Source: Dioscorea cayenensis subsp. rotundata (Eukaryota; Streptophyta; Magnoliopsida; Dioscoreales; Dioscoreaceae). From it: 64,000 nucleotides of DNA. Both the position numbers and the translations under genes were made by a program. Of this stretch, positions 1,346 to 45,373 are shown piece after piece (positions within the stretch are counted from its first letter, which is position 1; every line of letters starts with the position of its first letter). The stretch lies in contig NC_052488.1 of the NCBI RefSeq assembly GCF_009730915.1, positions 20,020,305 to 20,084,304 of the forward strand, in the 5' to 3' direction. The notes under the pieces are model-generated. The model worked only from the letters and a program-made list of their open reading frames with translations, was not told the DNA's origin and ran no database searches.

Positions 1346-1459
1346 CTAATAATAATAATAATAATAATAATATATAATTCTTGAAGATAGAACAGCTTTC
1401 CACCCGGATCATTCTTTGAGTTCTACTCAGAAATGAAAATCACATGTGCCACTGTTGAG

Positions 1460-2465
1460 AGTATCATATGACATTGATCACAATTATTTAATTCTTATCG
1501 TGAGCATAATTGGTGACAGGGAATGAGAAATGATATTTTGAATGGTCTATTTTTTTAAAAAATTTTTTTAATCACATACAATCCTTGTATTTTGATTGAT
1601 GTGTGTGTATATATATATATTTGGCAAATACAACTAGCACTACCTTACAAAGGGTTGTAAAAAAATAGATAAGACAAGTAGTGCACCAGTTAAGTGGGTT
1701 AATGATCTCTGGGTTTTATCATGTGAGGTGTACTAATACGCGGGATAATAATGATCTGATAATACTACTATAATATTTTTATAATATATCTACAATATTT
1801 ATATAGTATTATATTGCGCATGAATTTGGCCGTACACCACTCACTTATTTAAGTGACGTACCACGAGACAATCTAGTGGTTGTCCTTAATAAATTCAAAA
1901 AGTGACAAGAAAAGAGAAGTGAAAATTTGGAGGTTGTCTTTAATAAATTTAGAAAGTGACAAGAAAAGAGAAGTGAAAATTTGGATGTTCCCTTTTTATT
2001 TTTTATTTTTAATAATTCTTAATTACACACAATTCTTGATGAATATATATATATATATATGACAAATACAACAAGTGCCACCTTATAAAAAAATTATAAA
2101 ATAAATAGATAGGTATAATAGTACACCGGTTAAATGGTTTAACGATCTTTGGGTTTTATCATGTGTAGTGGGCAAACACAAGAAACAATGATAATATGTC
2201 AGTACTACTATAATTTTTCTATAATATATCTACAATATTTGAACAATACTATACTGCACATGAATTTGATTGTACATCACTCATTCATATTCAAATGACA
2301 TACCACTCGACAATCTAGCGGTTGTCCTTAATAAATTTAGAGAGTGACAATTATTTAATCACTATCATGAGCATAATTTGTGACAGAAAATGAGAAGTGA
2401 TATTTTTAATGTTCTCTTTGTTTTTTTAATAAATCTTAATCACACAATCCTTGTACTAGGTTGAT
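1460..2465. repeat. Imperfect ~430-bp tandem repeat, about 2.3 copies
   Basis: The blocks starting near 1560, 2010 and 2420 share TTAATCACA-type starts, then a (TA)n run, then GGGTTTTATCATGTG, CTACTATAAT, ATAATATATCTACAATATTT and GGTTGTCCTTAATAAATT. The inner part resembles the SINE inserted at 6230-6628 (CACCTTATAA, GTTTAACGA and TATAGTAT words). I take this to be an old SINE-containing segment that was tandemly duplicated. It is absent from the matching position in unit 2. Confidence 0.6.
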
Positions 2466-2843
2466 GAACAGGAATTTTCTCCCAATAAATTCAGAGTTAT
2501 TTATGAGACATCGGCAGAGAATTCAATGGATGGTTGGGAAGTATGATTGCAAGTAGACCATTTTGTATTTGTAATCCATCGTTTCCCTCTCTGATACCAG
2601 CACAATAAATAAAAGAAAAATTAACACCAAAGTTTTTAAATGGTCTGCCACATTTATTTCCCTTCAACCCAAATTTAATGCTGAAGTTGATCTGCAGTGT
2701 TTCACCGACAGTAACAGAATGAGAAACTCAGATTTACATATTCAATTAGTAGAAATCTTAAATCTTAAATCATGATAATTAATGAAATGGTACATTGTTT
2801 TACAGCTAATAAGAATAGATAAGTCAAGAAAAGATAAAACTCA

Positions 2844-2851
2844 CATGCATG
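2844..2851 (+). promoter_or_regulatory. RY motif CATGCATG upstream of CSLA-A1
   Basis: The palindrome CATGCATG lies within CTCACATGCATGGCCTCC, about 340 bp before the start codon. The same 18-bp word stands at 16395-16412 before the paralogous gene. RY motifs are bound by B3 factors of the ABI3/FUS3/LEC2 group. A role here is inferred only. Confidence 0.35.
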
Positions 2852-3126
2852 GCCTCCACTCTCCATGTGAAAATGAGACTAGTGTCTCACTCTGTCAAGG
2901 TCCATTGGCAGGAGATTAAATTTTTAAAAAAATGGCGGTCCTTCTGTTCATCCTTTCACTGTCTATACCAAAGTCATCAAAGTTGAACTTTAATGTCTTG
3001 TCTTCATTTTATTCATCCAAAAAATTATGAAACCAGAAATTTTTTGCTTGATTCATGGATATGTTTGTTTAGATTCTAAAACCCTGTTCTTCTTGCATCA
3101 ATGGTCCCACTCTCTTTGTTCAACTT

Positions 3127-3135
3127 TATATAAAA
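3127..3135 (+). promoter_or_regulatory. TATA box of CSLA-A1
   Basis: TATATAAAA lies 52 bp before the ATG at 3187, which fits a short 5' leader. The paralogue at 16634 lacks it. Confidence 0.6.
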
Positions 3136-3186
3136 GGTAGTCATGAAGGATCAAATGAGGTAGAAGCTGCTGAGTAGTTTACACAT

Positions 3187-5976
3187 ATGGCTGCCATAAC
3201 TCAGACAGGTAATTCAACCCAAAATTTTTTTTTTAAAATCTTTTTTGCTTAATTGCTTTCCATTGAAGTTTCTAAAACAGCAAACAACAATCTGTGTGCA
3301 ATGCAGCAGCTGCAGTGATGGCTGTTCTTGTCCAAGTATGGAATTTAGTGAGAGTGACACTAGTTGTGCCATTGTTAAGGTTGGCAATCTTCCTGAGCTT
3401 GATGATGACAGTGATGATACTTGTGGAGAAGGTTTTTGTGGGCATGGTGAGTTTGACAGTGAGAATTTTTGGTCTAAAGCCGGAGAAACGGTATCGATGG
3501 GAACCGATGAGGCCGGACTTGGAGACCGGACACTTGGCTTATCCTATGGTGCTCATTCAGATTCCAATGTATAATGAGAAAGAGGTAAATTAACATCATT
3601 CAAAAACATTAATGTTATACTTTTTCTTGTGTTCTTCTTCTTCTTCTTCTTCTTCTTCTTCTTCTTCTTCTCATAATCATGTTAATGAATAGGTTTACAA
3701 GCTCTCAATTGGAGCTGCCTGTAGTCTTGACTGGCCTTCAGACAGGATGATAATCCAAGTCTTAGATGATTCTACAGATCCAATAGTGAAGGTGAGACAG
3801 AATTATGATTTAGTGTCAGGCTTTTGGTAATCACTCCACTATTTTCTGTTTTCTTAGATCAGAAAGAAAGTATTCTTTGTTCTTGCATTATTAGGACATG
3901 ATATGAATTTTTCTTTTTTAATTTTGGCTTATTTCCAGTGTTTGACAATTTGATTAGGTTGCTTAGATTGATTAGAATGAAGCACTAGTGATAATCAAAG
4001 TCACTGATAGAAACATGGGTAGGGACTAGGGAGGATTCATATCTTTAAAGTAAGGTGACAGTAGCCAATGAGTTGGACCTCACTTACATTCAATTTCATT
4101 GATGTTCCCCATGAGAATTTCAGTTCTGCCATTCTTTTCAATGTCACTTGCTCTTTTCTTTTCTTTGTTGTTCCTTTTTTTGGTGTGAAAATGATCATGA
4201 ATGATTTTGACTCATAATTAGCATTATGACTTTTTCCTGCTGAGAATTTGAGTAGGATTTGGTTGAGCTTGAATGTCAGAAATGGAAGAGCAAAGGAGTG
4301 AAAATTACATATGAAGTTAGAGACAATAGACAAGGTTATAAAGCAGGAGCATTGAAGGAAGGAATGAAGTATGATTATGTTCGAGAGTGTGATTATGTTG
4401 CAATGTTTGATGCTGATTTCCAACCAGAATCTGATTTTTTGCTGAGAACTATTCCCTTTCTTGTGTATAATCCTGACATTGCTCTCGTTCAAGCTAGGTG
4501 GAAGTTCGGTTAGACTTCTCTCGCTGTTAAAAAAGTTAGAAAACAAAGATTTAGTGCCGGAATAACACCTTTTTTTTTATCTTGTTCTCATGTAGTGAAT
4601 GCTGATGAGTGTATGATGACCAGGATACAAGAAATGTCACTAGATTATCACTTCAAGATTGAGCAAGAAGCAGGCTCTTCTACATTTGCATTCTTTGGTT
4701 TCAATGGTACAGTTGCATTGCATGCTGAAATCTTGGTAGTTTTCGGCCCTACTTGCGATAATTTACAAATCAACAAGTTAAATTTTAGGAACTGCCGGTG
4801 TTTGGCGTATTAAAGCCATTGACGACGCAGGAGGATGGAAAGATAGAACAACTGTCGAAGATATGGACTTAGCAGTTCGAGCAGGGCTCGAAGGTTGGAA
4901 GTTTGTCTATGTTGGAGACGTTCATGTATGTTTTCCTTTCATCTTTTCAGTCTCTGTTCATGAATTCAAATCTATGTATTGCCTTAAGTTGATGTTTAAT
5001 TTTAAAATAGGTGAAAAGCGAGTTGCCGAGCACCTTCAAGGCGTATCGGTATCAGCAGCACAGATGGTCTTGTGGTCCTGCAAATTTGTTCAAGAAAATG
5101 GCCAAGGAGATAGTGATTAATGAGGTAAATTGCAGCATTTTATTGAACTTCTTTTTGTGAACCCGCAAAACTTACCGACATATATTCATTACATATGTGC
5201 AGAATGTGTCAATGTGGAAGAAATTTCATTTGCTATACAGCTTTTTTTTTGTCGGCAAAATCGTTGCTCATACTGTAACATTCATCTTTTACTGCATTGT
5301 GATCCCGGTTTCAGTAATAGTACCTGAAGTTGAAATTCCTCAATGGGGAGTGGTTTATGTCCCAACATTGATCACATTTTGCAAAGCTTTTGGAACTCCA
5401 AGGTAGAAAAACATACATCAATTCCAAGTCCTTACTTTTCATGAAAGATTATTATACCTGCTGAGAAGAGTACATTTCTGAATTTTACCACAGCTCAATT
5501 CATCTGGTGATCTTTTGGCTCCTTTTCGAAAATGTCATGTCCTTACACCGAATAAAAGCCGCTTTTACTGGACTACTAGATGCAGGGAGAGTGAATGAAT
5601 GGATAGTCACCGAGAAGTTAGGCGATGCGCACAAGCCTAAGAACACCGATAACTTCCAAGATAGCTCAAACACTCAACCACTGATGAACAAGCCTAAGAA
5701 AACTCAAACCAATATTTGGCAAAGGTACATGCATGTTAAATTTGAAACCATTGTTTCTTCATGACCGATAAATTTTAATAAACATATTGTTAATTCCTTC
5801 TTCTTGCTGTTAGATTCTATTTTTCAGAAATTTGGATTGGTTTGTTCATGTTATCATGCGGTTGCTTTGATCTTGCAACAAGACAGCAAGGCTACTTCAT
5901 CTACCTATTTCTCCAAGGCTTTGCATTTCTCTTCATTGGTTTTGGATACGTGGGAACATATGTTCCTGGTTCTTAG
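3187..5976 (+). CDS. CSLA: Cellulose synthase-like A, glucomannan 4-beta-mannosyltransferase (copy A1)
   Basis: This is a Golgi GT2 enzyme that polymerises GDP-mannose (and GDP-glucose) into (gluco)mannan backbones. Exons: 3187-3208, 3316-3584, 3693-3791, 4256-4508, 4596-4706, 4789-4925, 5011-5124, 5203-5402, 5494-5724, 5814-5976. All phases close to give 532 aa; Arabidopsis CSLA9 has about 533. Visible motifs are an N-terminal membrane segment (about residues 28-50), LDDSTD (121-126), DADFQP (182-187), TVEDMD (273-278) and QQHRW (312-316), i.e. the full D, DxD, ED, QxxRW set. The C-terminal third (exons 8-10) is hydrophobic with several membrane spans and ends VGTYVPGS. Exon 2 can also be joined at acceptor 3280, which shifts the frame; the 3315 acceptor keeps MAAITQT in frame. 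It is the first gene of unit 1 and near-identical in structure to the gene at 16634. Confidence 0.93.
3632..3671 (+). repeat. (TTC)n microsatellite in CSLA-A1 intron
   Basis: A run of about 13 TTC units lies in the intron after exon 2. A shorter run is at the same place in the paralogue (17042-17069). Both double as polypyrimidine tract upstream of the exon 3 acceptor. Confidence 0.9.
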
Positions 5977-6229
5977 TCATCTGATTCTTGCAACACTGAA
6001 TTCACCATCAAATTTTACAGAAGTATCATGTGAATCCTTCCTTTCTCTCTGCACATGTACGGCTCTTTATTCCAATTGACAGATACCAGCAAATGTTGGC
6101 TGTCAAGATTCTAGCAATTCATAGCAATTGTACCAAAACAATGTGCAAAAATGCAGCAACAGAGGGAAGAATGGCACTTGTTTGAGTACAATTTTGTAAT
6201 AATTGCTGCAAATTTTGTCTGTTCAATTA

Positions 6230-6628
6230 ATTTTTTTTTTTAACAAAGGCGATAAGCGCCGCCTTATAATGAGGTGTCAAAGGATATACAGACACAGAAG
6301 TGCACTAGTTACAGTAGTTTAACGACCCCCTAGAGATTTATTAACCCGGCCAAATGTCATATGGGGCAATTAAATTTCTACCATGTGCACGCCTAGAAGA
6401 TATTTCAGGAACCAAACCAAGTTAATAAATCCCGCTGTCTTGTAACCCTGGAGAGGAGGAAAATGATATACTCTCATGAGGGACCTATAAACAGTACAAC
6501 TACAGTATTTTTATATAGTATATTCAGTATATAAACAGTACTATAACAGTATTATCGACCCAGAAATTTGATTCTGGGTCGATCCATTTATTATGGAAGT
6601 AACTGTACGGTGGTTGTTTGGTTGTTTG
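6230..6628 (-). mobile_element. SINE-like retroposon with 10-bp target-site duplication
   Basis: The insert begins with a T run on the plus strand (its A tail) followed by AACAAAGGCGATAAGCGCCGCC. It is flanked by the perfect direct repeat TGTTCAATTA (6220-6229 and 6629-6638). The matching place in unit 2 (near 19215) has uninterrupted TTATTCAATTCATATTC, so the insertion came after the duplication. The same tail word, GGCGATAAGCGCC, is in the SINE at 31256-31444. An internal pol III promoter is not obvious, so it may be a rearranged or composite copy. Confidence 0.7.
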
Positions 6629-6638
6629 TGTTCAATTA

Positions 6639-7353
6639 CTCTTTATCACATTTCTGTTCCTTTTTATCACATTTCTGCAGAACAGAATAAAATAAAGTTC
6701 TGTGAATGAATCAAGAATTTTAAAATGATATACTCCACGTAAACATTAATACTTGCCACTTCTCCTTACCAAATTTTCCATAAATACTCTACAATCAGAG
6801 AAAGATACACTTGACTCTGCAACTTTCAGTACAGTTGACAAAATCACCAAACTTTCCATTCTTATCTAATAATTTTGCCAGCTAATAACAACCATCTGTA
6901 TATCTTTTCAAAATCCATGTGCTTAATGGCTGACAAGAAACTACCAATCATAGCTCCACATTTCATGAACATCTCTGTAACCAAACACAGTACATCAACA
7001 GTCTCCAACACTGTTACATATTTTGGTATTTTGTCTCAAAGCTTGTCCACAGATTCCACTAGCTTCGGAATTCAACGTATTTCTAAACTTTTGTTGATTT
7101 TTTGGATTTACAAAAAAGACAGAGTGTTGTAGTAGTCCATGATGTGACTCCACTTAAATTTTGCTAACATGTCTCCAAAAGTGTTGGTGCTTCAAAAGTG
7201 CAGATATTTGTAAAAATAACTCAGTTTACTTTTACCTCATGGTTGAAAAAGAGACGTCATTCTCACTTTCATACTACTGGGGCTAACTCTCACTTTATAA
7301 AGAGCTCAGAGAGTCAAGTCATTCCCAGATAGAGCAAGAAGCCTTTGGTGGCC
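6639..7353. other. Intergenic, upstream of CSLA-B1
   Basis: This is ordinary AT-rich upstream DNA. The part up to about 6880 has a counterpart at 19240-19445 in unit 2. The rest, including the promoter, is deleted there. No gene is seen. Confidence 0.6.
7296..7301 (+). promoter_or_regulatory. TATA box of CSLA-B1
   Basis: TATAAA in ACTTTATAAAGAGCTC lies 58 bp before the start codon at 7354. Confidence 0.5.
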
Positions 7354-9348
7354 ATGGCCACTTCAAAAGTAGGTGCAATTAGTGAGTCTTTTCTTAGTTT
7401 GTTCTCCTCTTCTTGTTCTTTGTTAAGGTTGCAATGGGAGGAGTTGGTGGTGAGGTGGAGGATTATCAGGGTAATGGTGGTGGTTCCATTGCTAAAGGTG
7501 GCAGTTTTGCTGTGCCTCATCATGTCTGCAATGCTTGTCTTTGAGAAGGTAACCATGGCATTGACCAGTCTCTATGCAAAGGTCTTCAGGAGAAGACCAG
7601 AAAGGAGGTATAAGTTTGAGCCATTGAAGGAGGATGAAGAGCTTGGAAACTCTGCTTTTCCCATGGTTCTTGTTCAAATTCCTATGTACAATGAGAGAGA
7701 GGTAATGTAGAAGATTTACTATCTTTTTCCTTTTGTGGTATGTTTTTACATGGATTAATTTGCTTGAGAAATTATGGTGAAGGTATACAAGCTTTCCATT
7801 GGAGCTGCATGTAGACTTTCATATCCAGCAGATAGAGTAATAATTCAAGTTCTTGATGATTCCACAGATCCAGAGATCAAGGTAATTGGATTTCTGTTGT
7901 TTGTGTTTGTTGGAATGTTTTGGGAGTTGATAAGAGTTGGAAAATTTGTGTAGGAACTAGTGGAGTTAGAATGCAAGATCTGGCAGAAGAGTGGCAAGAA
8001 CATAAGATATGCAGTTAGAGACAATAGGTGTGGTTATAAAGCTGGTGCTTTGAAAGAAGGGATGAATCATGACTATGTTCAGCTGTGTGAATTTGTTGCT
8101 ATTTTCGACGCTGATTTTCAGCCTGAATCCGATTTTTTGCTTCTAACTGTGCCTTTCCTTGTGCATAATTCTGAACTTTCTCTTGTTCAGGCTCGATGGA
8201 AATTCGGTATGACTAATTTGTTTTCGTCATGTTTGCGAATCTCTGTTTCAAGATTTGGTGTTCATCTAATCTAACTGGATTTCTTTTCGGTATTTTGTAG
8301 TGAATGCTAATGAGTGTTTAATGACGAGGATTCAAGAGATGTCTATGGATTACCATTTTAAGATTGAACAAGAAGCTGGTTCGACAATGTGGTCATTCTT
8401 CGGTTTCAATGGTGACTAAAACTCAAGTGTTTTCAAACATATCAGCTGTATGATCTCTGTTTCATCGAACTGCTCTTTTTACAGGAACTGCCGGTGTTTG
8501 GAGAATCAATGCTCTTGTTGAATCGGGAGGCTGGAAAGATCGAACGACAGTAGAAGACATGGATTTGGCAGTTCGAGCAAGCATTGAAGGATGGAAATTC
8601 GTATATGTCGGCAATGTCAAGGTACATCAATAAATTTTACTTTGAAAACCTTAAGATGATCGACAATCGCGCATGTTCATGACAATGTACATTCAGGTTC
8701 AAAGCGAATTGCCGAGTACATACAAGGCCTATCGTAATCAACAGTATCGTTGGTCTTGTGGTCCAGCCAATTTGTTCCGAAAGACTGCTTTTGAAATACT
8801 TAAGACAAAGGTTTGATGTTTGTGATTAACCCTTTTTTTCTGCTAACTTGTCATTTTCTCAGGGTCTTTCTTGATTTTTACTGCAGAAAATCTCATGGTG
8901 GAAGAAAATTTACTTGCTTTACAGTTTCTTCTTAGTCCGGCGAGTGATTGCGCACATAGTCACCTTCGTATTTTACTGCATTATCATTCCATTTGCGGTG
9001 CTAATCCCTGAGGTTACAATTCCAGCATGGGGAGTGGTTTATATCCCTACAACAATTACATTCCTCAATGTTTTCGGAACTCCAAGGTTCGTAAAACAAA
9101 TCAAATTCAATGACTTCGCCTTATTCTTATTCCTTCGATCTCTTTCCTGCAGTTCGGCCCATTTGCTGCTATTTTGGATCTTCTATGAAAACGTCGTGGC
9201 TCTGCATCGTATGAGGGCGGTGATCACCGGTCTGTTGGAGGTAGGCAGAGTAAATGAATGGGTTGTTACTGACAAACTTGGAGACACTTTGAAGAACAAC
9301 ACCATCAAGAAAATTATCACAAAACCCAACTCAAAAGTTCATGAAAGG

Positions 9349-9387
<39 letters not shown>

Positions 9388-9635
9388 CCATCCTTTTTTA
9401 ATCAAGTCATGACCTGAATCTTGTGATGATTTACAAATACTCATATTCTATACTTGGTCGTTTACTATGCAGGATTTACATCCCAGAGCTGGTGGTTTCA
9501 GTGTTTCTGTTCATATGTGCATGTTATGACTTAAAGTATGCAAAGGGGCACTACTACATCTACATCTATCCACAGTCCGTTGCATTCCTTATCATGGGTC
9601 TTGGATATGTTGGGACCTTTGTTCCCAACAAGTGA
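7354..9635 (+). CDS. CSLA: Cellulose synthase-like A, glucomannan 4-beta-mannosyltransferase (copy B1)
   Basis: This is a second, diverged CSLA. Exons: 7354-7701, 7783-7881, 7954-8206, 8301-8411, 8485-8621, 8697-8810, 8887-9086, 9153-9347, 9473-9635; phases close to give 539 aa. It has the same intron positions as CSLA-A except that there is no small first exon. The N-terminus is longer ([20 protein letters not shown]). The catalytic set LDDSTD, DADFQP, TVEDMD and QQYRW is complete, and the protein ends VGTFVPNK. The start is the first ATG in frame, after a TATA box. Residues after [12 protein letters not shown] are more variable than in CSLA-A. The donor of the eighth intron is AAAG/GTCATC and runs straight into a TCA microsatellite, which makes a weak splice site. 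The unit 2 counterpart (19473-20656) is dead. Confidence 0.92.
9349..9387 (+). repeat. (TCA)n microsatellite at a splice donor
   Basis: Twelve or so TCA units begin directly at the donor of CSLA-B1 intron 8. Read through, they would encode a serine run before a stop at 9415-9417. Confidence 0.9.
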
Positions 9636-9969
9636 ATAAGAGATCCTCATTCCATTTCAATATTTCCAAATGTCTATTCTTCAACTAAGCTGCATGCAGC
9701 ATTATACAAAGACATTTATATATTTTCTGAATAAGGTTTCCATAAAAGTCATTCAGTTTGTAATTTTATATTCCTGTTGAATACTACACTCCCTTTTGAT
9801 TGCAAAGACAACATGCTCATCAAACTTGTCGTCATATTTGTATAATAAAGTGTTGAATGACATGAGAATATGATGCTTTGTTTCAAATCATATACCACCA
9901 ACAAATTGCAAGAATTAACTGCCAATAGAAAGAGAGAAAAAGAGAATACTGAAAAAGTACATCTATTAT

Positions 9970-12900
9970 CAGTAATCTCACAATCAGGAAAGAAACCAAG
10001 TTTACGGCTTACGGCTAGTAGGAAGACAGCAGCCTCTGGAAAGGTGACCTTCAAGACCTTTCGATCTTCCACCATATGGGCTGAGTGAGCGCAAATCATT
10101 ACACTAAGCTTGTTAACCATGCCACCGTATTGATCATCTGTTGTTTCCTTGATACTGCCAGTCATAGCTGAATCAACTTCCCAATGCTGAACAATGTTGG
10201 AATTACAGTTAGGTTTAAGCTGGTTGTCTGATCTTGCCATGTTGTCCGAGTTCAGTACAACCACAATGACTCCATCTGTGTCTGTGAGTAACTTCCCTTG
10301 GAGCCGGGAAGCAAATTCAGTCCTCAAAAAAAAAAAAAGAAGCTAAATTAGCAGCAAAATACAATAACTAAGATTGACATTGAATAGTAAAAATCCACGG
10401 TAAGATGAGAAGAGACAAGTTTGATGCATACCATGAAATGGAGCAGGACATGTTGATGGTGTCCATGTTACTGCAGCTATAGCATGAATATATAATTGGC
10501 TACGTTTAGATTGATTAATTCTGCACTCTAAACAAAATGTGCTAAAAATTCTTGATTGTGTCATGTCACTGCAGCTACAGCATGAATCCATAGTGCCATA
10601 TTTCCATTGTTTAGTTCTGCAATCAAGACAAAAAACAAAAACTCAGCAAGCAGGACTTTCATCAAATGTTTTCTGATGAACAATGACAGCTAGTCATTGA
10701 GAGATTTATAATGAAATATCACGTCAAATGAGTTGGATGTAGATCCAATACATTATTTAAGCTTAATTCAACTCAAAACCTTAAACTGATCAAATGAGAG
10801 ACCCATGCTTATGTGATCATTAGATTCATTACTCCCACATGCATTGAGGAATCATTACTCACTCTGATGGGGGAAATGGCTTTCGTTTCATGAGAAATTT
10901 CCATTTTACGCCATTTTACTAAAAAATATTAATTTAAATAATTGATTATAATAATTAACTCGAATAATAATTAAAGTGAAATATTTAATTTAAACACTTA
11001 ATTATAATAATTAAAATTGACAATGATGTTCAAAATTTTTTATAAATAAAGACAAGCTATTTTATTCAGATAGTTAATTAGAATAATTAAATTAAATAAT
11101 AATTAAAGTGAAATATTTAATTTAAATATTTAATTAACCTGAATAATAATATTCAAAATATTTTATTAATAAAGAAAATTATTTAATTAAAATAATTAAA
11201 TTGAAAATTGACTAAAGAGACATCTTTGCTTATAATAATTAAAATAAAGAATGAATATTTTATAAATAAAATAATTATTTATCATTAAACATAACTCACA
11301 ATTGCTCTATATTAAACGCATAAATGTAACTTCACCACTATCCCCTCTTTTTACTTTTCTCATTCACAATAAATTAACTTTCCAATCAAACACAATTTGC
11401 ATTCCTATCATTCCATTCCCATTACCAAACACAATTTGTTTATAAAGCCACTATTACTGAGAGAGCAAAATAAGATATTTGAGATTTACAATTGATTCAC
11501 TCATAGCTGCATCACAGTAGAAAGCGTGCGAGTTATAAGAGAACCCGGACTCAAAATCTTCTATTGACACTATTAATACTTGAGTCAAACCTTTTTTTTT
11601 TTTCTCTATACTTGAGAAAGACCATATCTGCTTGCAACTCAATAAGCTCCCTAGGTGCTAATTGATCACATGACAAATTTAATTTGGTATAAAAATAAAA
11701 AATAGAATAATTACCTTGGCGAACAGCTTGTATTTGTCCTTTAGCATAATTTTCATATATATATGCTAAATAATTATACGTAACTTTAGCAATAGAAAAT
11801 TTTGATAAGTGAAAACCAATATCCTAAATAACCAAATTTTTTTATCCATGTGATGATTTTTTACATTGGCAATACACTATTTTCATTGGTGTTGTTTGTG
11901 ATTACACAGCTTCTGCAAGACTATCATGCTTCGGATCAAGAATAAACATAATTAAAAATCAATCAAAATGCTTCAACATATGTATTTCAATTAAAGCTTA
12001 TTCATACCAAACAAAAAAAATTCATTTTGCATGTATTTAAATTACAATAATCAAGATTCTTACCAAATACTAAAATTGTTACTTTATAGGGAAAGTAAAT
12101 GCAGAGAAAGATTTTGTAAGGAAACTTAGTAGGGGAAGTGTTTCTTTGCAAAGTATCAAACGGGAAAAGTAAGAATAAAAAGAGAATAACACATGAAAAC
12201 ATCAACACAAAACAATTATACAGCAGTTACAAAATAACTCACTGATGTTTTTCTGCCCATTCTCATGGCAAACAAAGAAGACAAAATCATAGAAGCGGTT
12301 AAATTGTAACGAGTCCACCCATTCAACAATCATAGCAAAAGGTTAATATTCAGGAATATAGTAAAATAATCCCATTAAGATCCCCGATACAAGTATTTGC
12401 ATTTTAAAAACAGAAAATGTAGGCAAGGAATAGCAATCTTGTCAGATATGCATGCAACCTGAAATCAAATGGCACTGGCACAGTTTACCAATTCATTAAT
12501 CTTGGTGAAAAAAAATCATATTCAAGTATGTGATGAGTTAATCCCATCCTGGTCCCGATAAAATGATTTGCATTTTAAAATAGAAAAGGTAGTTAAATAT
12601 AGCAGGATTGCCAGACACACACAATTTGGAATGAAACGGCACTCACAGAGAGGTCAAGACATGCCATAAGTATGAGAAGATCATCTTGGTGAAAAAAAAA
12701 AAATCATATTGAAGTATGTGATGAGTTAATCCCATTCTGGTCCCGACAAAATAATTTGCATTTTAAAATAGAAAGGGTAGTTAAATATAGCAGGATTGCT
12801 AGACACACACACACTTTGGAATGAAATGGTACTCACAGAGAGGTCAAGACATGCCATAAGCATGACAAAATCATTAAAGCCTGCTCATTCTGACACTGTG

Positions 12901-14720: not shown

Positions 14721-14729
14721 TGTTTTTTA

Positions 14730-15246: not shown

Positions 15247-16398
15247 CAGTAATTCAAATGTGTTTATATTGTCTATCTCCAAAAAGATCATGCCTCATCT
15301 ATAGTGATCAAAATGATTCTCTATTGTCCTCTAAAAACATTCGTAGATTTGTGATCACTGTTTGGGTGAACAATACTATTGTAATTATGAGTAGTAGTAC
15401 AGTGAAAAAAATGAGATATACAATATTTTGATCTTAACCGTCAATACTTATTTCTACTAGACTTGTAGGAAACTATAAAACAAAACCCAAACAACCCAAT
15501 TAAACCATTCCTCTTTCTTAGATGTCACTGCAGACATTCTACAAATGTCCGCAGTTGACGTATTGTGTGTGTATACATGTGTAATATTAAAAATAAATAA
15601 ACTTAGGCATTTATCCTAATTTTATAAACATTAACATCCAATGACATTTATTCATCACTCTCAACTTCAGGCCTGATGAGTCAGAAGAATGTGGGAATGA
15701 AACTAAAGCTCACGAGGGAGAGGTAGCCTCATGCTTTGAAGATTGGCAGATGCATGGATCCCATGACTTGCATTAATATTATTAAAAGACCGCTTGAAGC
15801 AATTAAGTCAACCAAAATTTTTAAAATTTCTACACAAATCAAATTGATATATAATTTCTGAAGATGAAGCATCTCTCCATTCTGAACATAAGTTCTTTTG
15901 ATTCTACTCAGAAATGAGGATCAAATAGAACCTGTGATTCAGATGACCATTCACAGCTAAATTATCTGCAAACCAGTTCCAATACCTTGGAATGAATTTG
16001 AATTCCACAGCAGCATCAAAGTTTGTCAGAGAATGAATATTTCTAATAGCATTATTTACTCTCCATGTCAGACAGTGGTTTGAATACTTCCATATCTTGG
16101 TGAGATTTGCACGGTCAGTAAAAATAGCTTCACTGTTTTTAGTTGATCTCCTGCATCTACTTCTGTTCACAGTAATTGTCAGAGTTCAGCTGTGTTCTGT
16201 GTTCTGTGTTCTGTGTTCTGCACATAGTGCCAATCAAGATTCAAGAATTAATAGAATGAGAGACTTAGTCTTATATATTCATTTAGCATAAATTTTGAGA
16301 ATTAGATCATGATGGTTAATGAAATGGTACAACGTTTTACAGCTAATAAGCATAGATAAGTCAAGAAAAGAGGAAAATTAGAAAAAAGAAGGAACTCA

Positions 16399-16406
16399 CA
16401 TGCATG
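16399..16406 (+). promoter_or_regulatory. RY motif CATGCATG upstream of CSLA-A2
   Basis: Same context as 2844-2851. It is retained after duplication although the surrounding promoter has diverged. Confidence 0.35.
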
Positions 16407-16633
16407 GCCTCCATACTACATGTGATTTGTGAGACTACTCTCTCAAGGTCCACGAACAAGAGAATTGAAATAAAAAAATGGAAGTCCAGTTCATCTTTAA
16501 ATGTCTAAACCAGAGACATTACTGTTGAACCCTTGCTCTTCTTCCATGAATAGGTCCCATTCTCCTTGTTTCCTTCCAAAATGATGGGCATGAAGGATCA
16601 AAGGAGGTAGAAGATGTTGAGAAGTTTCCATAA

Positions 16634-18980
16634 ATGGCTGCCATGACCCAGACAGGTAATTCATTTATTACTTTCCATAGGAATTCCTAAAACAGCAAAC
16701 AACAGTCTGTGTGCAATGCAACTGCAGTGATGGCTGTTCTTCTGCAAGTATGGAATTTAGTTAGGGTTACACTGGTTGTGCCATTGTTAAGGTTGGCAAT
16801 CTTCTTGAGCTTGGCGACGACAGTGATGATACTTGTGGAGAAGGTATTTGCAGGAATTGTGAGTTTGGTGGTGAAAGTTTTTAGTCTAAAGCCGGAGAAA
16901 CGGTACCGATGGGAACCGATGAGCCCAGACTTGGAGACCGGAAACTTGGCTTATCCTATGGTGCTTATTCAGATTCCAATGTACAATGAGAAAGAGGTAA
17001 TTAAACATGGTTCAAAATATCAATCTTCCACTTTTCTTGTGTTCTTCTTCTTCTTCTTCTTCTTCTTCTAATCATGTTAATGAATAGGTTTACAAGCTCT
17101 CAATTGGAGCTGCATGTTGTCTTGACTGGCCTTTAGACAGGATGATAATCCAAGTGTTAGATGATTCTACAGATCTAACAGTGAAGGTGAGACAGAATTA
17201 TGCTTTAAGCTGTTGTTATGACATTATGACATTTTCTGGTTTGAATGTTAGCAGGATTTGGTTAAGCTTGAATGTGAGAAATGGAAGAGCAAAGGAGTGA
17301 ATATCACTTATGAAGTAAGAAACAATAGACAAGGTTATAAAGCAGGCGCATTGAAGGAAGGAATGAAGCATGACTATGTTCAAGAGTGTGATTATGTTGC
17401 AATATTTGATGCAGATTTCCAGCCAGAATCTGATTTTTTGATGAGAACTATCCCTTTTCTTGTGTATAATCCTGACATTGCTCTTGTCCAAGCTCGGTGG
17501 AAGTTCGGTTAGATTTCTCTGATTTAGTCACAAGATTTAGACAACAAATATATAGTCAATGAATAACACTTTCCGATCTTTTCTTATGTAGTGAATGCTG
17601 ATGAGTGTATGATGACCAGGATACAAGAAATGTCACTAAATTATCACTTCAAGATTGAGCAAGAAGCAGGCTCTTCTACATTTGCATTCTTTGGTTTCAA
17701 TGGTACAATTGCATTGCATGCTGAAACATTAGTAGTTTTTGGTCCTACTTGTCATAATTTACAAATCAACATGTTAAATTCTAGGAACTGCAGGTGTCTG
17801 GCGTATCAAAGCCATTGACAATGCAGGAGGATGGAAAGATAGAACAACTGTCGAAGATATGGACTTAGCTGTCCGAGCAGGGCTTGAAGGTTGGAAGTTT
17901 GTCTATGTCGGAGACGTTCATGTATGTTTTTCCTTTCTCTTTTTTGTTTTCTGTTTATGTCTTTAATTCTACTTTTATCTTTAGTTGATGCTTAATTTTA
18001 ATATAGGTGAGAAGCGAGTTGCCGAGCACCTTCAAGGCGTATCGGCATCAGCAGCACAGATGGTCTTGTGGTCCTGCAAATCTGCTCAAGAAAATGGCCA
18101 TGGAGATCATGAAGAATGAGGTAAATTCCAGAATTTTAACAAACTACTTTTTATGAACTGGTGAAACTTACCAGCATATTTTCGTTATATATGTGCAGAA
18201 AGTGTCGATTTGGAAGAAATTTCATATGCTATACAGCTTTTTTTTTCTTGGGAAAGTCGTTATTCAGACGGCAACATTCATCTTTTACTGTGTTGTGATC
18301 CCGGTTTCAGTATTAGTACCTGAAGTTGAAATTCCTCAGTGGGGAGTGGTTTACATCCCAACATTGATCACAGTTTGCATAATTTTTGGAACTCCAAGGT
18401 AGAGAAAGGCATCAATTACCAGCCTTGCATCTCTTATTAGAATCCAAGTTTACATGAAGTTTATATCTGCTGAGAAGAGTACATTTCTGAATTTTACCAC
18501 AGCTCAATTCATCTGGTGATCTTTTGGCTCCTTTTCCAAAATGTCATGTCTTTACACCGAATAAAAGCCGCTTTAACTGGACTACTAGATGCAGGGAGAG
18601 TGAATGAATGGATAGTCACCGAGAAGTTAGGCAATGCACACAAGCCTAACAGCACTGATAAATTCAAAGAAAGCTCAAACACTCAACCACTGATCAACAA
18701 GCCTAAGACAACTCAAACCAATATTTGGCAAAGGTACATGGTAAATTTGATATTGTGGTTTCTTCTTGACCGATAAATTTGAATAAACGGTATGTTTATA
18801 ATTCTTCTTGCTGCTAGATACTATTTTTCAGAAATTTGGGTTGGTTTGTTCATGTTATCATGTGGCTGCTTTGATCTTGCAACAAGACGGCAAGGTTACT
18901 TCATCTACCTTATCCTCCAAGGCATTGCATTTCTCATCGCCGGTTTTGGATATGTCGGAACATATGTTCCTGGTTCCTAG
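16634..18980 (+). CDS. CSLA: Cellulose synthase-like A, glucomannan 4-beta-mannosyltransferase (copy A2)
   Basis: This is the tandem paralogue of the gene at 3187. Exons: 16634-16655, 16728-16996, 17088-17186, 17255-17507, 17592-17702, 17785-17921, 18007-18120, 18199-18398, 18503-18733, 18818-18980. Phases close to give 532 aa and every exon has the same length as in A1. LDDSTD, DADFQP, TVEDMD and QQHRW are all kept. Substitutions are mostly conservative (for example PIVK to LTVK after LDDSTD, EVRDNR to EVRNNR). The intron after exon 3 is much shorter than in A1 (68 versus 464 bp). No TATA box is seen at the position used in A1. By family it acts in the Golgi on GDP-mannose; sub- or neofunctionalisation relative to A1 cannot be read from sequence. 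Confidence 0.93.
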
Positions 18981-19472
18981 TCATCTGCTTGCAACACTGA
19001 ATTCAACATCAACATTTGCAGAATATCATGCCAATCTTTTGTGCCTGCACTTACACTGCTATTCATTCCTGTTTAAAGACCAGCAGAAAAGGTTGGTTAA
19101 AAAGATCTTGTCAATTGGTGACAATTGTACTTAAACAATCAGGAAGCTGCAACAAGAGCGGAAAGAAGCTTCCTTATTAGAGTACAATTTTGTAATCATT
19201 ACTGACAATTTTATTTATTCAATTCATATTCTATGTAACATTTCTGCAGACAAAAAAACAATGAAGTTCTGTGAATGAACCAAAGAACTTAGGATTAAAT
19301 CCTGTATGTAAGCATTACTCTTGGCACTTCTCCTTACTGAATGTCTGCATAAATACTACAATCAGAGAAAGATCTACTTGACTTACAACTTCAAATAAAC
19401 ATTTGACAAATAACCAAAATTCCCACTCTTGGTTAATAATTTTTTATCGCAGATAAAAATAATTTTGTGTAG
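18981..19472. other. Intergenic with remnant CSLA-B2 upstream DNA
   Basis: The stretch 19240-19445 matches 6660-6880 of unit 1 (TCTCCTTAC, ACAATCAGAGAAAGAT). It then jumps straight to the CSLA-B exon 3 acceptor at 19472, which marks a deletion of about 1.05 kb. Confidence 0.7.
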
Positions 19473-20656
19473 GAATTAGTGCAGTTAGAATGCAAGGTCT
19501 GGAAGATGAGTGGGAAGAACAGAACATATGAAGTTAGAGACAATAGACTTGGGTATAAAGCCGGTGCTCTGAAAGAAGGGATCAATTATGCTTATGTACA
19601 GCAGTGTGAATTTGTTACTGTTTTAGATGTTGGTTTTCAGCATGAATCCAATTTTTTGCTTCAGACTGTGCCTTTCTTTCTGCATAATTCTGAGCTTTCT
19701 CTTCTTCAGGCTTGATAGAAATTCAGTATGACTGATTTATCTTTTTCATGCCTGTGAATCTATGTTTCAAGTTTCAATGTTTTGTAGTAAATTCTAATGA
19801 GTGTTTGATGACGAGGATTCAAGAGATGTATATCGATTACCATTTTAAGGTTGAACTAGAAGCCAGTTTGACAATGTGGTCCTTCCCCAGTTTCATTGGT
19901 GACTAAGTCTCAATGTTTTCAAACATATCAACAGTATGAACTCTGTTTAATCGAACATTTCTTTTTACGGGAACTGCCGGAGTGTGGAGAATTAATGCTC
20001 TTCTTGAATAGGGAGGCTGGAAAGATCGAATGCAGTGTAAAAGACATGGAATTGGCAGTTTGAGCAAGCACCGAAGGATAAAAATTCAAATTTGTCGGCA
20101 ATGTCAAGGTACATTGAAAATTTTACTTTGAAAACCTTAAGACGATCGACAATGTTGCATGTTAATCACAATGTACATTTAAATTCCAAGCGAATTACCG
20201 GGTACATACAAGGCCTATCTCAATCAACAGTATCAGTAGTCTTCTGGTTCAGCCAATTTGTTCGGCAAGACAACTCTAAAGATACTAATAAAGGTTTGAC
20301 GCTTGCGATTAATGTTGTTTCTGCTAACTTCTAGTTTTCTTAAGGTCGATACTGAAGACAATACACCACAAAAAGAAAATTATCAGAAAACCCAAATCAG
20401 AAGTTCATGAAAGGTCATCATCATCTCTTATAAATCAACTTTTTGTGTTCCAAATCTTGTGATCATTTGCAGGAACTCATATTTTATACTTGGTTGGTTC
20501 ATTTGCAAGATTTACATCCCAGAGCTGACGGTTTCATTAGCATGTTATGACTTGAATTATGCAAACGGGCGCTATTACATTTACACCTTTTCACAGTCCA
20601 TTGCATTCCTTATCATGCGTTTCTTGGGCATGTTCAGACCATTGTTCACAGCAAAT
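19473..20656 (+). pseudogene. CSLA-B pseudogene (unit 2 copy)
   Basis: This is homologous to 7954-9630 but lacks the promoter and exons 1-2. The exon 3 remnant (19473-19725) still reads [10 protein letters not shown], but the catalytic DADFQP has become DVGFQH and QARW runs into a stop. The exon 4 (about 19788-19900), exon 5 (about 19972-20108) and exon 6 (about 20175-20294) remnants carry stops (for example LLE-stop-GGWKDR) and frame changes. Exon 7 is deleted. Exon 8 survives as a fragment (about 20355-20415) and exon 9 has lost its AG acceptor (CAA before GATTTACATC). It is not functional as a glycosyltransferase. Confidence 0.92.
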
Positions 20657-20996
20657 GAATATGAGATGTTTATTCCATTTTAGTATTTCCGCATGTCCAT
20701 TCTTCAGTTAAGCTGCCTGCAGCATTATAACAAGACATTTATCAATTTTCTAAATAAGATTTCCATAAAAAAATAAAAATAGAGCATTCAGTTTGTAATT
20801 TTATTTTCCTGTTGAAGACACCCTTTTGATTGCAAAGACAAGTAACATGCTGATCAAACTCATTGTTGTATTTGTATAAAAAGATGTTTTGTTTCAAATT
20901 ACAATGTACCAAACAAATTGCAATAACAGCCTGCCAACAGACAGAGATAAAGAGGATACGAAAAAACAAATATTTCTATTATCAATAATCTCAGGG

Positions 20997-23900
20997 TCAG
21001 AGGAAAAAACCAAGCTTGTGGGTTGTAGGAAGACAGCAGCCTATAGAAAGGTGACCTTCAAGACCTTTTGATAAGCTATCTTCCACTGCACAGGCTGAGT
21101 GCATGCAAATCATTACGCTCGGCTTGTTGACCATGTTGCCGCCGTACTGATCATCTGTTGTTTCCTCAATACTGCCACTCATAGCAGAATCAACTTCCCA
21201 ATGCTGAACAATATTGGAATCACAATCAGGTTTAAGCCTCTTGTCTGGTCTTGCCATACCATCTGAGTTCAGTACTGCCACATTGCCACCTTCTGTGTCT
21301 GTGAGTGACTTCCTTTTTGATCCAGGAAGCAAATTCAGTCCTAGAAAAAAAAAGATGAATGAGCAGCAAAATATAATAACAAGGGTCGATGTTGTATGAT
21401 AGAAATCCACATTATGACCAAAATAGACAAGTTTGATTCATTACCACGAAATGTGCTGGAAATGCTTGGTTGTGTGTCCATGTCGCTGCAGCTACAGCAT
21501 GGATCTATAGTGCTACATTTTGATTGATTAATTCTGCACTCAAAACAAAAAGGCTGAGCAAGTTTGAATTTCATCGAATCTTTTGCAGTGAACAATGACA
21601 GCTAATCACTGGTTGATACACAATGAAGTATGACGGCAACAGAACAACCTATCAGTGTCAAACTACTTGGTAGGTAGGAAAAACAACTTCAACACACTCT
21701 TCTATTACTATCGATTTGAGCATTCAGTAGCCATGGTATGGTACAGATCCATATGAATAATAGACGAATAGCAATCAGTATTTTTGTGCTGGCATTGACT
21801 GATCTGATCAGTGGTATTTATGGAAAACACCAACAATGTAAGTACAGAATGTATAGGGCTGTTTTTCACAACATGAGTTTTGCCATCAGATTGTGTTTAA
21901 TGTAATAGCAATGGTATAGATAATATAACACCTGTACATATGCTCCACAAAATCATCAATGAGAACAGGCCAAGCTCCTGCAAATGAGTTGAAGTAGTTA
22001 AATGTAAATTTTGAACGATATTTCTTTACTATTATAGCATAATCTTATGACAACTAAAACCAGTTTAAAGAGAAAAAAAAAAAATTGCAACCACCAAAAC
22101 TATCATTTAACCCTGAGCATTAATAGAGCAGAGGCTTGGGGATTTTGGACCACCACAAATAACCAAGAAAAAGCTAAACCATATATTTAGTATGTGAAAG
22201 TACAGTAATGACGAAATAATGAGAAGAGGCGAGAACTGACAAGACAACATACATAAATAAGCTTTTTGATAAGAGTAAATAACAAAGTAAACATGATTGG
22301 CACATACATTGCTTGTAATGCAAGATGACCTTTCTCCTGAACCATGATGTTGGACTGAATATCTACTTTAAATTGCAAGAGAAAGCATTTTGCTTTGAAA
22401 CAAAAAAATAAAGAGGAAGCATTTCCCTCAAGGGTAAAGGAAAACCTTCTGGCCTGTTTAAATTTATGTAAAGAAGCTTTTCCTTCTCATTTGACAATTT
22501 GACATGATAAAAAAAAAAAATTTAAAAAAAGAGGGATAACTCTAGACAAGGCAATTGATCATTTACAAGTGTGTGCAAATATTTGGTAATAACTAACTGT
22601 TGCAAGATCAGCACCACAAATTATTTAGAGGTAGTCTTATTCTAGTGTAGTGTAGTAGCATCACACTTTCTATAACAGTTTCATTCTCTCAACAGCAATG
22701 ATAATCATATCATTTATGACAAGGGGTTACTTCAGCAATTGAAGATATGTTATATACAGCAAAAACCAACTAAGAGCAAGCCATATTGAACTTGACAAAC
22801 ATATGCAAATTCTCACTGTAAGTTCTAATTTCATGCACAGAGAGACAATCACTTACTGCACAGAGAAATAGATTGCTTCAAACAAACAAGAAACAACAGC
22901 ATAGGTGTTATATTTCACCTATTTCTAGTATTAATTGTCAATAAGCCCATAACATGGGCTTGGTAATTACCTTTGGGATCATAACCATCAAGATCTTCAT
23001 TCACACAACGGCTGAATGCCAGGAGTTGACGCCAAGCATCCTCAGATATATTATACCGCTGGTATTTCTAAATTAAGCCAGAAAGGATGTTAATGTCCAT
23101 CCAGAACAAGAGAAGATAAAATATTTCTAGCCAGAATGATTAGAAATAATTTGATGTGATTGGAATTTGGAAGACTGTCGTAATTCAAAATCAATGTCAT
23201 AAAAAAGAAAGAACAGGTAGAAAATCACGAAATCAGAATATTTCAGTCTTGTAACAGAAACCATCACATTTCAAAATCTTGATACAGGCTAATTCAATGC
23301 TACATTTATGCATGAACTTTTATTGTCTGTTGATACACTAAGTCAATAAAAATTTCTGTGCGCCCACATCTTAATGGGGCAAATACATGCACAATACAAT
23401 ACAATCTATAAAGCAAACGTGCATATACAACATCAAGAAATGATCACTGACAAGTGTTTGTTGCAACATGTTTTGAATGAGCATGTTGCCTGTTTGGGAC
23501 ATAATTTTTGTTAGTTTATGGGCTCATATGTGTTATAATTACTTATCCTTGTAGATGGGATGGTTGATGAGCATTCGCCAAAAAAAAACGATGCCAAAAC
23601 GATTAGTTCGCAAGAAGTTCAGAGGGGTACACGGCCATGGGATCATTCTCCATGGGCATGGTGAACAATTCAAGACGATACCTGAGACAAGCACGGATGT
23701 GGGAAGCATCGTCCGTGGCCATGGAAGGACGGAAAGGAAACATTCAATGGCCAAAGCGCACGGCCATGGGAAACCTTACCACGGCCATGGATTTGACAAT
23801 CCGAGCAAACACCCGGAAAGGCAGAGACGTGCACGGCCGTGGGGACTAATTCCCACAACCGTGGGAACTGCTTATGCAAATTAGACGGTTCAAAGACAAA

Positions 23901-26760
23901 GAAGCGCACTGTCATGAGTGCTCTAGCCAAGGTCGTGGACAATCACGGGATAAGGGTATCTGGGTATATAAGGCCAAGTTTTAGAGAAAATAGGGGGCCT
24001 TTTTCTGGACAAAAGGAAGAGGCGGTTGTTGACCTAATTTGGAAGGAAAAAGAACCATCAGGCAAGGGAGGAGACCTTGAACAGAATCAACTACAACCAT
24101 TCATCATCGCTTCCGTCTTCCCCATTGTTGGTGAAAAGGACCAAGCGTCATTCGGCCGTCCAAGGAGAAGGATTTATTTTCATATTTTAATCATAGACTT
24201 AAGGGAGTTTTCGTTTGCTAAAAACATGTATTCCTTTCAGATTTTCAAGTTTGTTTTGTATTGCTTCATGAGGAGCTAAACCCCCTTTGGTGGGTGCTTG
24301 AACCTGAGAACCCCGGGATGCTTTAGTTGTGGTTTGGCTTACTTCCTTTAATTCAGATTGCAATTGAGTTCGAATCTTATGTTTTTCTTGCTCATGACCT
24401 TTGTAGTGACAACATAGGTTTTTGAGAATGAATGTTCTGGTGAAGAGTTGCAAGACCCACTAAAATAGGTCAACCAAGATTGGAGAGGGAGACAAGAGAG
24501 CCAAGGGTAGAGAAGTATCCACTTCCCCTCCGATTGATCACGGCTGCCCTCGCGTTTCCTTGTTCTTCATGCAATCATACAAATTCCTTTGACGTGAGAG
24601 GTCATAGTGAAGAATTTTTATTGGATTTGGGGTTAGTGATCTTGCAAGAGCGCTAGCCTATTTCAAAAACCTAGTTGGTCAACCGGGATCCCTAGATCTT
24701 CAAGAATTCAAACAAGCCCCTTATAATGTGACAGGTAACAGGTTGAGGGTTTCTATTGGAGTAGTCACCAATCACCATGTAAGTGGGATTGGGGTACCTT
24801 ACGATCGCCGCAACTCAAGTAGTTTAAATTAAGGAAATTCGTGGGTTTTGGTTCTTCATTTCTAGAAATCCTAGGGGATCAGTGTTCAAGCACCTGCTTC
24901 ATCATCTATTGATTGTTTCCTTATTCTTTCTCTGTGCTTTTAACCTTCATCTTATTGTGTTAAATTGTTATTTCTCTAATTGTGTTTAAGGCTAGATAAC
25001 AAGATCAAAGTGATTGCTAGTAATTTCTTTCCTTGTGAATATGATAACCCAATCTTTAGGTTTTTTTATTACTTTGACACCCGAGCACTTACGGTACACA
25101 TACGCAAAAAGCGTGCCAATCAAAAACATCTCTAGCAACAAATAATTTTCCAGGATTAAAAAACTATGCCAATAAAGTTGGATCCAAAGAAATAATGACA
25201 CAACAGGTTCCAAGTGAAACATAATTGTAACCAAAAGTACTGAAGCAACACATTCGTTTACAGTGCTAATGTTAGAGGAACCACAAGAAACTCAAAAAAT
25301 GAAATAAAGCAGCTTTATACCTCAATAAACTCACACCACTGATTAAGTAATCGAAACCTCCCAGTTAGAACTATCCTCCATGCAGTAATAGCCCTGCTTA
25401 CAGCTGTGAAACATTCAAAACCCAAGAAAAATTTTAAGGTAAGGATAGAAAGAGAATAACACATGGAAACAGCAAGATAAAGCAATTATACAGGAGTTAC
25501 AAAATAACTTACTGATGCTTTTCTGTCCATTTTCACGGCAGACGAAGAAGACAAAATCATAGAAGCAGTTAAATTTCAATGAGTCCGCCTATTTAGCAGT
25601 CATAGCAAATGGTTAATATTCAGGAATATAGCCAAATAATCCTATTCAGATCCCGACACAACGATTGCCATTTTAAAGAATGGAAAAGATAGGAAAGAAT
25701 AGAAATATTGTCAGATCAGATATGCATGCAACCTGAAATGAAATGGCACTCACATAGTCTACCCATTCATTAATCAATGGTGAAAAGAAAATATTCAAGC
25801 ATGTGGTTAGTTAATCCCATTCAGATCCCGACAAAATAATTTGCATTTTAAAAACAGAAAAGTAGTTAAAGAATATCCATATTATCAGGCATGCACACGA
25901 TTTGGAATGAAATGGCACTCACAGAGAGGTCAAGACATGCCATAAGCTTGACAAGATCATTGAAGATTGCATCCCTGCCAAAAAATGATGATAAATACAT
26001 AATCATTTTTAAGAATATCAAATCAAGGAAGTTTAACTCAAGTTATGCAATGCTGATATAAGTTATGCAAGCTGAAATAGCATAGACGTAAACCATTTTA
26101 AAGAAGGAGTCTAACTGAAATGGCAGAAGATCTGAAACTCAACAAATACCTTGATGGCCATCTTGAGTCCAAGGATTTTGATAGCATAACCAGAGGCTCC
26201 CTTGCACTCAAATGATTGTGTTGTGAAACAATATCTGAAATAGACGACACTAAGACAGTAATTTCTCAATAACAAGAACCATATGCATCAACTAATCAGG
26301 GTTGAACTAAGAAAGTAATTATCAAGAATTAAACAGGTAGAATAACCAGAAGTTCATACATTGAATCATACTAACACTCAAACAAAAAAAGAAAGTTTTT
26401 TTTAGAGCATACAAACTATGCATCTGATATAAAGGTTGAATCATGTATAGATCTTCATAAAACACACTAAAATTCAACAAAAAGAGAAAGAAAACCAAAT
26501 GCTTGGTATCAGAGACAGCCCAAGAACTTCCCAAGTAGCGAGGCTCCACCTAACACCACTCTAACCTCTAAAAACCAAGAGAAATTCCTCTAAACTCCTC
26601 AAACGCAATCGAACCTCAAGAACCCACTCAAAACAACAAGATAAAGAATAATTGGCCGAGAAAAAAAGAGAAATTTTGGGTTCAAGAAAAGCAGAAGCAA
26701 ACCGCAGTATGTAGCATAGATCTCAAAGATGTCGGCCCGGCCACAGAGAGGAAAGCCCAT
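20997..26760 (-). CDS. AAR3: DCN1-like protein (AAR3-like, cullin neddylation domain)
   Basis: Exons, minus strand: 26760-26703, 26234-26150, 25974-25923, 25588-25513, 25403-25321, 23067-22971, 21977-21932, 21533-21445, 21340-20997. All phases close to give 309 aa; Arabidopsis AAR3 is about 295. The DCN1/PONY domain spans roughly residues 60-205 with FYDFVFFVCRENGQK, TGRFRLLNQWCEF, RYNISEDAWRQLL and GAWPVLIDDFVEHMYR. DCN1-like proteins help load NEDD8 onto cullins; AAR3 affects responses to auxins and anti-auxins. The C-terminal region (exons 8-9) is Cys-poor except for a short cluster (CCSCSD) and has a basic patch (GSKRKS, RPDKRLKPD), as in AAR3. Intron 5 holds a solo LTR. It is the intact partner of the remnant at 9970-13570. 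Confidence 0.85.
23470..25095 (+). mobile_element. Solo LTR-like sequence in the AAR3-like intron
   Basis: A block of about 1.6 kb is absent from neighbouring introns. It is rich in CACGGCCATGG and CACGGCCGTGG words (23630-23840), as in LTRs of Tat/Ogre-type Ty3 elements. It ends TTACTTTGACACCCGAGCAC, then GCGTGCCAATCA. The reverse complement of 50975-51060 ends almost the same way (TTTATTACTTTGACAACCCG). No primer-binding site or gag-pol follows, so it looks like a solo LTR. Exact borders and target-site duplication were not found. Open frames inside are not taken as genes. Confidence 0.6.
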
Positions 26761-26878
26761 GGCTGATCGGCGGCAGAGCTAGGGTATGAGAAAGATTGCT
26801 TCTTGGATCGAGAAACCCTAGCCCGAGATCGGATTGGGATGAACGAAACGGCTCAAAACCCTGTTATCCTCCCCCTCT

Positions 26879-45368: not shown

Positions 45369-45373
45369 TCTCT

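Follow-up and report, generated by a model that had tools for sequence, protein, structure and literature searches.

In the window analysed here, a stretch of 64,000 nt from Dioscorea cayenensis subsp. rotundata (C18:20020305-20084304; genome of 584 Mb in 2249 contigs, denoted C1, C5 and so on), two adjacent units each carry, in the same order, the glycosyltransferase genes CSLA-A and CSLA-B and an AAR3-like gene on the opposite strand. Two intact CSLA-A genes stand beside a single intact CSLA-B and a single intact AAR3-like gene, and the locus raises the question of whether this outcome records selection on gene dose or the ordinary resolution of a tandem duplication. We regard as highly probable a single tandem duplication of the block, followed by neutral loss of CSLA-B2 (in unit 2) and AAR3-1 (in unit 1) and by constraint on both CSLA-A copies. 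A single divergence runs through the whole block, CSLA-B2 and AAR3-1 have decayed, and CSLA-A1 and A2 are constrained.

Two collinear units of one age

Comparison of the window with itself by BLAST discloses a collinear run of direct matches between unit 1 and unit 2, with 73-85% identity and four matches for which E is printed as 0.0, in the order CSLA-A, CSLA-B and, on the minus strand, the AAR3-like gene. A more sensitive comparison places the outermost matches at 1370-1445 to 15847-15926 and at 13108-13657 to 26303-26846. A sequence-only reading of this DNA had claimed two direct-order copies of the block, at 1374-13655 and 15849-26840; the collinear run confirms the arrangement, and the limits agree closely. 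The CSLA-A / CSLA-B / AAR3-like block is a tandem segmental duplication: its two copies lie side by side, in the same order and orientation, and have diverged to a common extent.

This divergence amounts to 502 differences over 3008 aligned sites when ten noncoding classes are pooled, a Jukes-Cantor (JC) distance of 0.189; intron 3 of CSLA-A, whose copies differ in length (464 vs 68 nt), was excluded. The synonymous divergence (Ks) of CSLA-A1/A2, 0.193 (0.144-0.247), equals the noncoding distance, and the introns of CSLA-A show 98 differences in 655 sites, both values obtained along the lines of checks that the sequence-only reading had proposed. Such uniformity fits duplication of the whole block in one old event. 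No recent gene conversion need be invoked for the likeness of A1 and A2, the A introns lying within the range of other noncoding sequence. The Ks between A1 and B1 is saturated, at 2.5, and the A/B pair is therefore far older than the block duplication.

An assembly artefact, in which one unit would represent a haplotig of its neighbour, had been named beforehand as a result that would overturn the duplication. On C5, a pair of CSLA genes separated by about 460 kb encodes an identical protein over the compared columns, which suggests that the assembly may hold duplicated pieces elsewhere; for the present units a haplotig has next to no probability, excluded as it is by the 502 noncoding differences (about 17% of sites), with different pseudogenes carried by the two units and no gap between them, the sole N run of the window lying at 51599-52598.

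Some observations weigh against the favoured account of one duplication and later loss. The heterogeneity among the ten noncoding classes approaches the usual limit (chi-square 15.5, 9 degrees of freedom, p = 0.078), the extremes being the 3' flank of CSLA-A (JC 0.279) and a 75-site intron stretch (0.131). The 2.2-kb spacer between the units has no match in the left flank and a single weak inverted one of 62 bp (74%) in the right flank, and the original junction is not seen. In addition, the genome search with AAR3-2 missed more distant DCN1-like genes, and its copy count refers to close copies only.

Decay of two genes, constraint on a third

The gene models are predictions from splice signals and from the agreement of the two copies. 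CSLA-A had been described as intact in both units, and both copies display a 532-codon frame free of internal stops, with GT-AG introns and a common exon-2 acceptor given to the two; an alternative model for exon 2 of A2, devoid of an AG acceptor, was rejected in favour of the acceptor shared with A1. CSLA-B1 matches the GT2 family domains PF13632 (E 1.5e-19) and PF13641 (E 7.5e-16) and, distantly, six PDB sequences, all of them cellulose synthases; A1 and B1 share 321 of 520 residues. By eye, the translations of A1, A2 and B1 contain DDSTD, DADF, TVEDMD and QQHRW or QQYRW, corresponding to the catalytic D, DxD, D, QxxRW set of CSLA enzymes. The CSLA label itself goes beyond the GT2 domain results and is adopted from the sequence-only reading.

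CSLA-B2 is dead. Loss of its promoter, of exons 1, 2 and 7 and of the DxD motif had been claimed, and each element is borne out; the list was incomplete, since 154 of the 195 nt of exon 8 are also gone, 41 nt being kept. The match in the A-B intergenic region ends at 6876/19443 and resumes at 7942/19461, and the promoter is therefore missing. The remaining sequence comprises (i) six in-frame stops; (ii) indels in three exons, with 1 nt inserted in exon 5, 3 nt missing from exon 6, and both an extra 2 nt and a loss of 15 nt in exon 9; (iii) non-AG acceptor positions, as aligned, at exons 5, 6 and 9, although exon 9 has an AG within a few bases and its non-AG may reflect an alignment shift; and (iv) DVGF in place of the DADF of B1, which together with the stops leaves no complete catalytic motif set. 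The ratio of nonsynonymous to synonymous divergence (Ka/Ks) between B1 and B2 is 0.65 (0.43-1.03) over 258 codons, stops excluded, and 43 of the 72 amino-acid differences are assigned to B2, 5 to B1, with 24 undecided, a pattern as would be expected with an early death of B2.

The AAR3-like pair shows the opposite polarity. AAR3-2 contains the cullin-binding (PONY) domain PF03556 (E 1.3e-28), and it matches DCN1-like structures, among them DCN1-like protein 2 in the PDB (E 2.6e-25). We assume the AAR3 name from the sequence-only reading, beyond what the cullin-binding domain conveys. In unit 1, exons 1, 3, 4, 8 and 9 are recovered with scores of 86-374 against a shuffle maximum of 38, whereas exons 2, 5, 6 and 7 were not found, their scores of 19-23 being no higher than the shuffle maxima of 25-27 (30 shuffles for each exon), in accord with the claimed loss of exons 2 and 5-7. 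The matched cullin-binding stretch (AAR3-2 residues 66-163) is carried mostly by exons 5-7, and AAR3-1 is therefore without most of that domain. The two sets of losses together confirm that the AAR3-like gene and CSLA-B were lost in opposite units, as had been stated. Several DCN1-like genes are known, and AAR3 is named among them in a passage of PMC3968751.

Intron 5 of AAR3-2 is 2253 bp long, and the stretch 23500-25250 holds repeated CACGGCCATGG-like motifs, probably an insertion; two open frames tested in it have no Pfam match.

For CSLA-A, the Ka/Ks of 0.296 (bootstrap 0.21-0.42) shows that both copies have evolved under purifying selection. The proteins differ at 63 of 532 residues, and Ka/Ks peaks in residues 346-532 (0.47; bootstrap 0.26-0.91, an interval that overlaps those of the other two regions). 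Polarized against ten other CSLAs of the genome, 33 changes fall to A2 and 19 to A1, with 11 undecided (p = 0.07), and seven differences affect sites otherwise almost invariant in those ten proteins, A2 being the changed copy at five of them and A1 at two; with B1 as the sole outgroup the changes are even (A2 18, A1 17, 25 undecided). The tree assigns A2 a branch of 0.095 and A1 one of 0.037. Among eleven single-outgroup tests, four give p < 0.05, with A2 the faster in all four, two of these outgroups (C5_058 and C5_518) being the same protein and all tests sharing A1 and A2. A2 thus tends to evolve faster than A1, a trend that is not firm.

The ancestral block would have comprised an already old CSLA-A/CSLA-B tandem pair and an opposite-strand AAR3-like gene of DCN1 type, duplicated once in tandem, probably via unequal exchange or replication error. 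Each gene pair then took a separate course: CSLA-B2 and AAR3-1 were lost via deletions, stops, frameshifts and insertions, most likely neutrally, with an intact partner remaining, and the losses would have landed in different units by chance, while both CSLA-A copies stayed under purifying selection as presumably functional genes.

Reciprocal loss of this kind is an ordinary fate of duplicates, without need for special selection. Two independent losses are expected, by simple arithmetic, to fall in opposite units half the time, and loss of one member is given as the commonest fate of a duplicate in a passage of PMC9252495; the loss of AAR3-1 and CSLA-B2 is therefore uninformative on selection for single dose, and the earlier proposal that single AAR3 and CSLA-B doses were selected is unsupported. 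A fuller version of that proposal, in which selection removed the second AAR3-like gene and the second CSLA-B and favoured two CSLA-A genes for mannan synthase dose, accounts for the set of intact genes retained by the block and for the constraint on both CSLA-A copies. It is nevertheless very unlikely, facing the even odds of an opposite-unit outcome under independent random loss and a leaning of A2 to faster protein change, itself not firm, that fits relaxed or shifted function and not equal dose. As for the suggested benefit from two CSLA-A genes, retention of both under constraint (Ka/Ks 0.30) stands, and the dosage benefit does not, since a sharing-out of function between the copies, a slow course of loss, or constraint that has relaxed on A2 would explain the retention equally well or better.

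Retention of A1 and A2 through sub- or neofunctionalisation, and not through dose, concerns only this pair and is compatible with duplication followed by neutral loss; it may be considered a serious possibility, somewhat short of an even chance. The 63 residue differences, the Ka/Ks peak in residues 346-532, the seven changes at near-invariant sites and the repeat-bearing sequence of about 1 kb upstream of A1 (1446-2711), without counterpart upstream of A2, would favour such a split, whereas the asymmetry between A2 and A1 is not significant on the majority count (p = 0.07).

Relatives and fragments elsewhere in the genome

All counts of relatives in the genome searches are among the matches listed. 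In three such searches no second copy of the block appears, the matches being CSLA relatives and fragments. The CSLA-A1 search returned at least 136 matches, with 81 of 121 candidates scored; grouping by position and exon limits gives CSLA-like loci on C10, C5 (four genes), C14, C11, C18 (at 18.09 Mb) and C19. The hits fall into two classes by exon limits, one matching 129-216 in one exon (best identities 57-75%) and the other matching about 198-304 (53-63%), which would be CSLC.

Besides the window, tandem CSLA pairs lie at C19:1661.7-1671.1 kb and C5:30.944-30.953 Mb. These match gene for gene (ultrafast bootstrap 99 and 100; 98 and 86 with a poor outgroup) and are probably copies of one older pair; the tree with the higher values leaves out the CSLC outgroup (32 aligned columns only) and the C5_518 row (equal to C5_058). 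Of three constrained trees, the one joining A with C19-X/C5-V and B with C19-Y/C5-W is excluded by the approximately unbiased (AU) test, whose p = 0.0017 came with an IQ-TREE warning of too few replicates, and is not excluded by the Kishino-Hasegawa (0.051) and Shimodaira-Hasegawa (0.119) tests; neither of the remaining two can be told apart from the best tree, and A and B have no resolved tie to the C19 and C5 pairs. The C19 pair was considered as a pre-duplication block and set aside, with no AAR3-2 match in 1655-1675 kb at E 0.001 and no resolved tie to A/B in the tree.

The two C5 genes whose proteins are identical over the compared columns lie at 58-63 kb and 518-523 kb in opposite orientation, and represent either an assembly duplication or a recent inverted duplication.

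The AAR3-2 search returned at least 15 matches, of which the window itself (C18) accounts for 10, C14 for two, and C19, C1 and C8 for one apiece. The five outside the window, comprising two C14 stretches and three exon-2 stretches, all proved to be fragments. The exon-2 stretches lie inside a repeated CACTA-like element spanning 5.9 (C19), 5.9 (C1) and 7.4 kb (C8); aligned pieces of these three copies, a lower bound on copy number, share 93-97% identity. The C8 copy ends in CACTACTACATAACTG and its near inverse, with AGA flanking both sides, and hence displays CACTA ends and a 3-bp target duplication; the C19 copy preserves one good CACTA end, the other being changed, and in the C1 copy both ends are changed or shortened, so that one copy of three shows the full structure. 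The fragments are 94-96% identical to AAR3-2 (464 sites) and 72-74% to AAR3-1 (264 sites); their source was therefore the unit-2 copy, or its lineage, and the capture came well after the block had been duplicated. The same alignment puts AAR3-1 and AAR3-2 at 76% identity (265 sites), a value lowered relative to the block average by the inclusion of an ill-matched end.

On C14, minus strand, two intronless AAR3 pieces of about 160 bp (exons 6-7-8) lie at 14053343 and 14071049, 17.7 kb apart within sequence 93% alike over 2.4 kb; in them exon 6 continues directly into exon 7, and a 10-nt deletion adjoins the passage from exon 7 to exon 8, a structure suggestive of a processed copy. A 249-bp piece of CSLA-A, reaching from the promoter through exon 1 into intron 1, lies at C2082:93789-94037, flanked by a 14-bp direct repeat (near 93757 and 94050). 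A third copy of the block on C2082 was rejected, the last 34 kb of this 99-kb contig matching by the 249-bp fragment only. That gene fragments have left this locus repeatedly, with an intron-bearing piece of AAR3-2 going to the CACTA-type element, separately an intronless exon 6-7-8 copy of an AAR3 gene to C14, and a promoter and exon-1 piece of CSLA-A to C2082, seems improbable; if true, a decaying, transposon-attracting tandem duplication could favour capture and feed new exon combinations.

In the remainder of the window, positions 1-1370, just left of unit 1, contain tandem repeats of a GTTTAAGAAATGAG-like sequence, together with two copies of a repeat of about 200 bp (7-221 and 665-857). 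Reverse transcriptase remnants occur on the minus strand at 49215-50505, with weak RVT_1 and zf-RVT matches under the Pfam cut-offs. Four open frames tested in insertion-like stretches and the spacer have no Pfam match.

Table 1. Coordinates of the tandem block, its genes, related fragments and neighbouring genes (window positions unless a contig is given).
Feature	Position	Strand	Description
Unit 1 of tandem block	1370..13657	+	outer limits of detectable homology
Unit 2 of tandem block	15847..26846	+	outer limits of detectable homology
Spacer between units	13658..15846		2.2 kb
CSLA-A1	3187..5976	+	10 exons, 532 codons, open
CSLA-B1	7354..9635	+	9 exons, 539 codons, open; GT2 family domains
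AAR3-1 pseudogene	9974..13580	-	remnants of exons 1, 3 (exon-3-like sequence repeated), 4, 8, 9; exons 2, 5, 6, 7 not found
AT-rich stretch	10728..12165		no unit 2 match in window comparison; occupies place of AAR3 exons 5-7
CSLA-A2	16634..18980	+	10 exons, 532 codons, open
CSLA-B2 pseudogene	19461..20665	+	keeps exons 3-6, exon 9 and the end of exon 8; disabled by 6 stops, frameshifts and damaged splice acceptors
AAR3-2	20997..26760	-	9 exons, 309 codons, PF03556 cullin-binding domain
AAR3-2 stretch also in CACTA-like element on three contigs	25902..26369	-	end of intron 1 to start of intron 3, exons 2 and 3
AAR3-2 fragment	C19:4347826-4348305		480 bp, inside CACTA-type element
AAR3-2 fragment	C1:28771336-28771815		480 bp, inside CACTA-type element
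AAR3-2 fragment	C8:18308119-18308598		480 bp, inside CACTA-type element
Neighbouring gene	44700-45371		MYB
Neighbouring gene	57906-59693		DYW-type PPR
Neighbouring gene	60311-61549		NAC-domain gene
Neighbouring gene	62276-64000		second PPR gene

Comparison with known systems

Pack-CACTA elements of the kind found on C8, C19 and C1 are already described in part of PMC8903248; the present element resembles them in its CACTA-type ends and in carrying a host gene fragment at several loci, and may be regarded as a further, candidate example. As to gene arrangement, CslA genes appear as scattered singletons in a passage of a survey of 242 genomes (PMC9062648), whereas this genome contains at least three CSLA tandem pairs (in the C18 window, on C19 and on C5), a departure that may interest the field of mannan synthesis. 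Several CSLA genes in tandem on one scaffold are described for Dendrobium officinale in part of PMC9204230; the likeness lies in the tandem CSLA genes, but the unit duplicated here extends to an AAR3-like gene, unrelated to CSLA, and one of the CSLA copies has become a pseudogene.

A parallel in process is fractionation, or reciprocal silencing, in which collinear copies lose one member of most pairs, with losses in both copies. It differs in following whole-genome duplication, while the present case comprises three genes in tandem and hence makes no statistical case for biased or selected loss. The block offers a clear example of a small tandem duplication resolving, with one pair kept and two lost, and a caution against inferring selection from reciprocal loss when the events number two.

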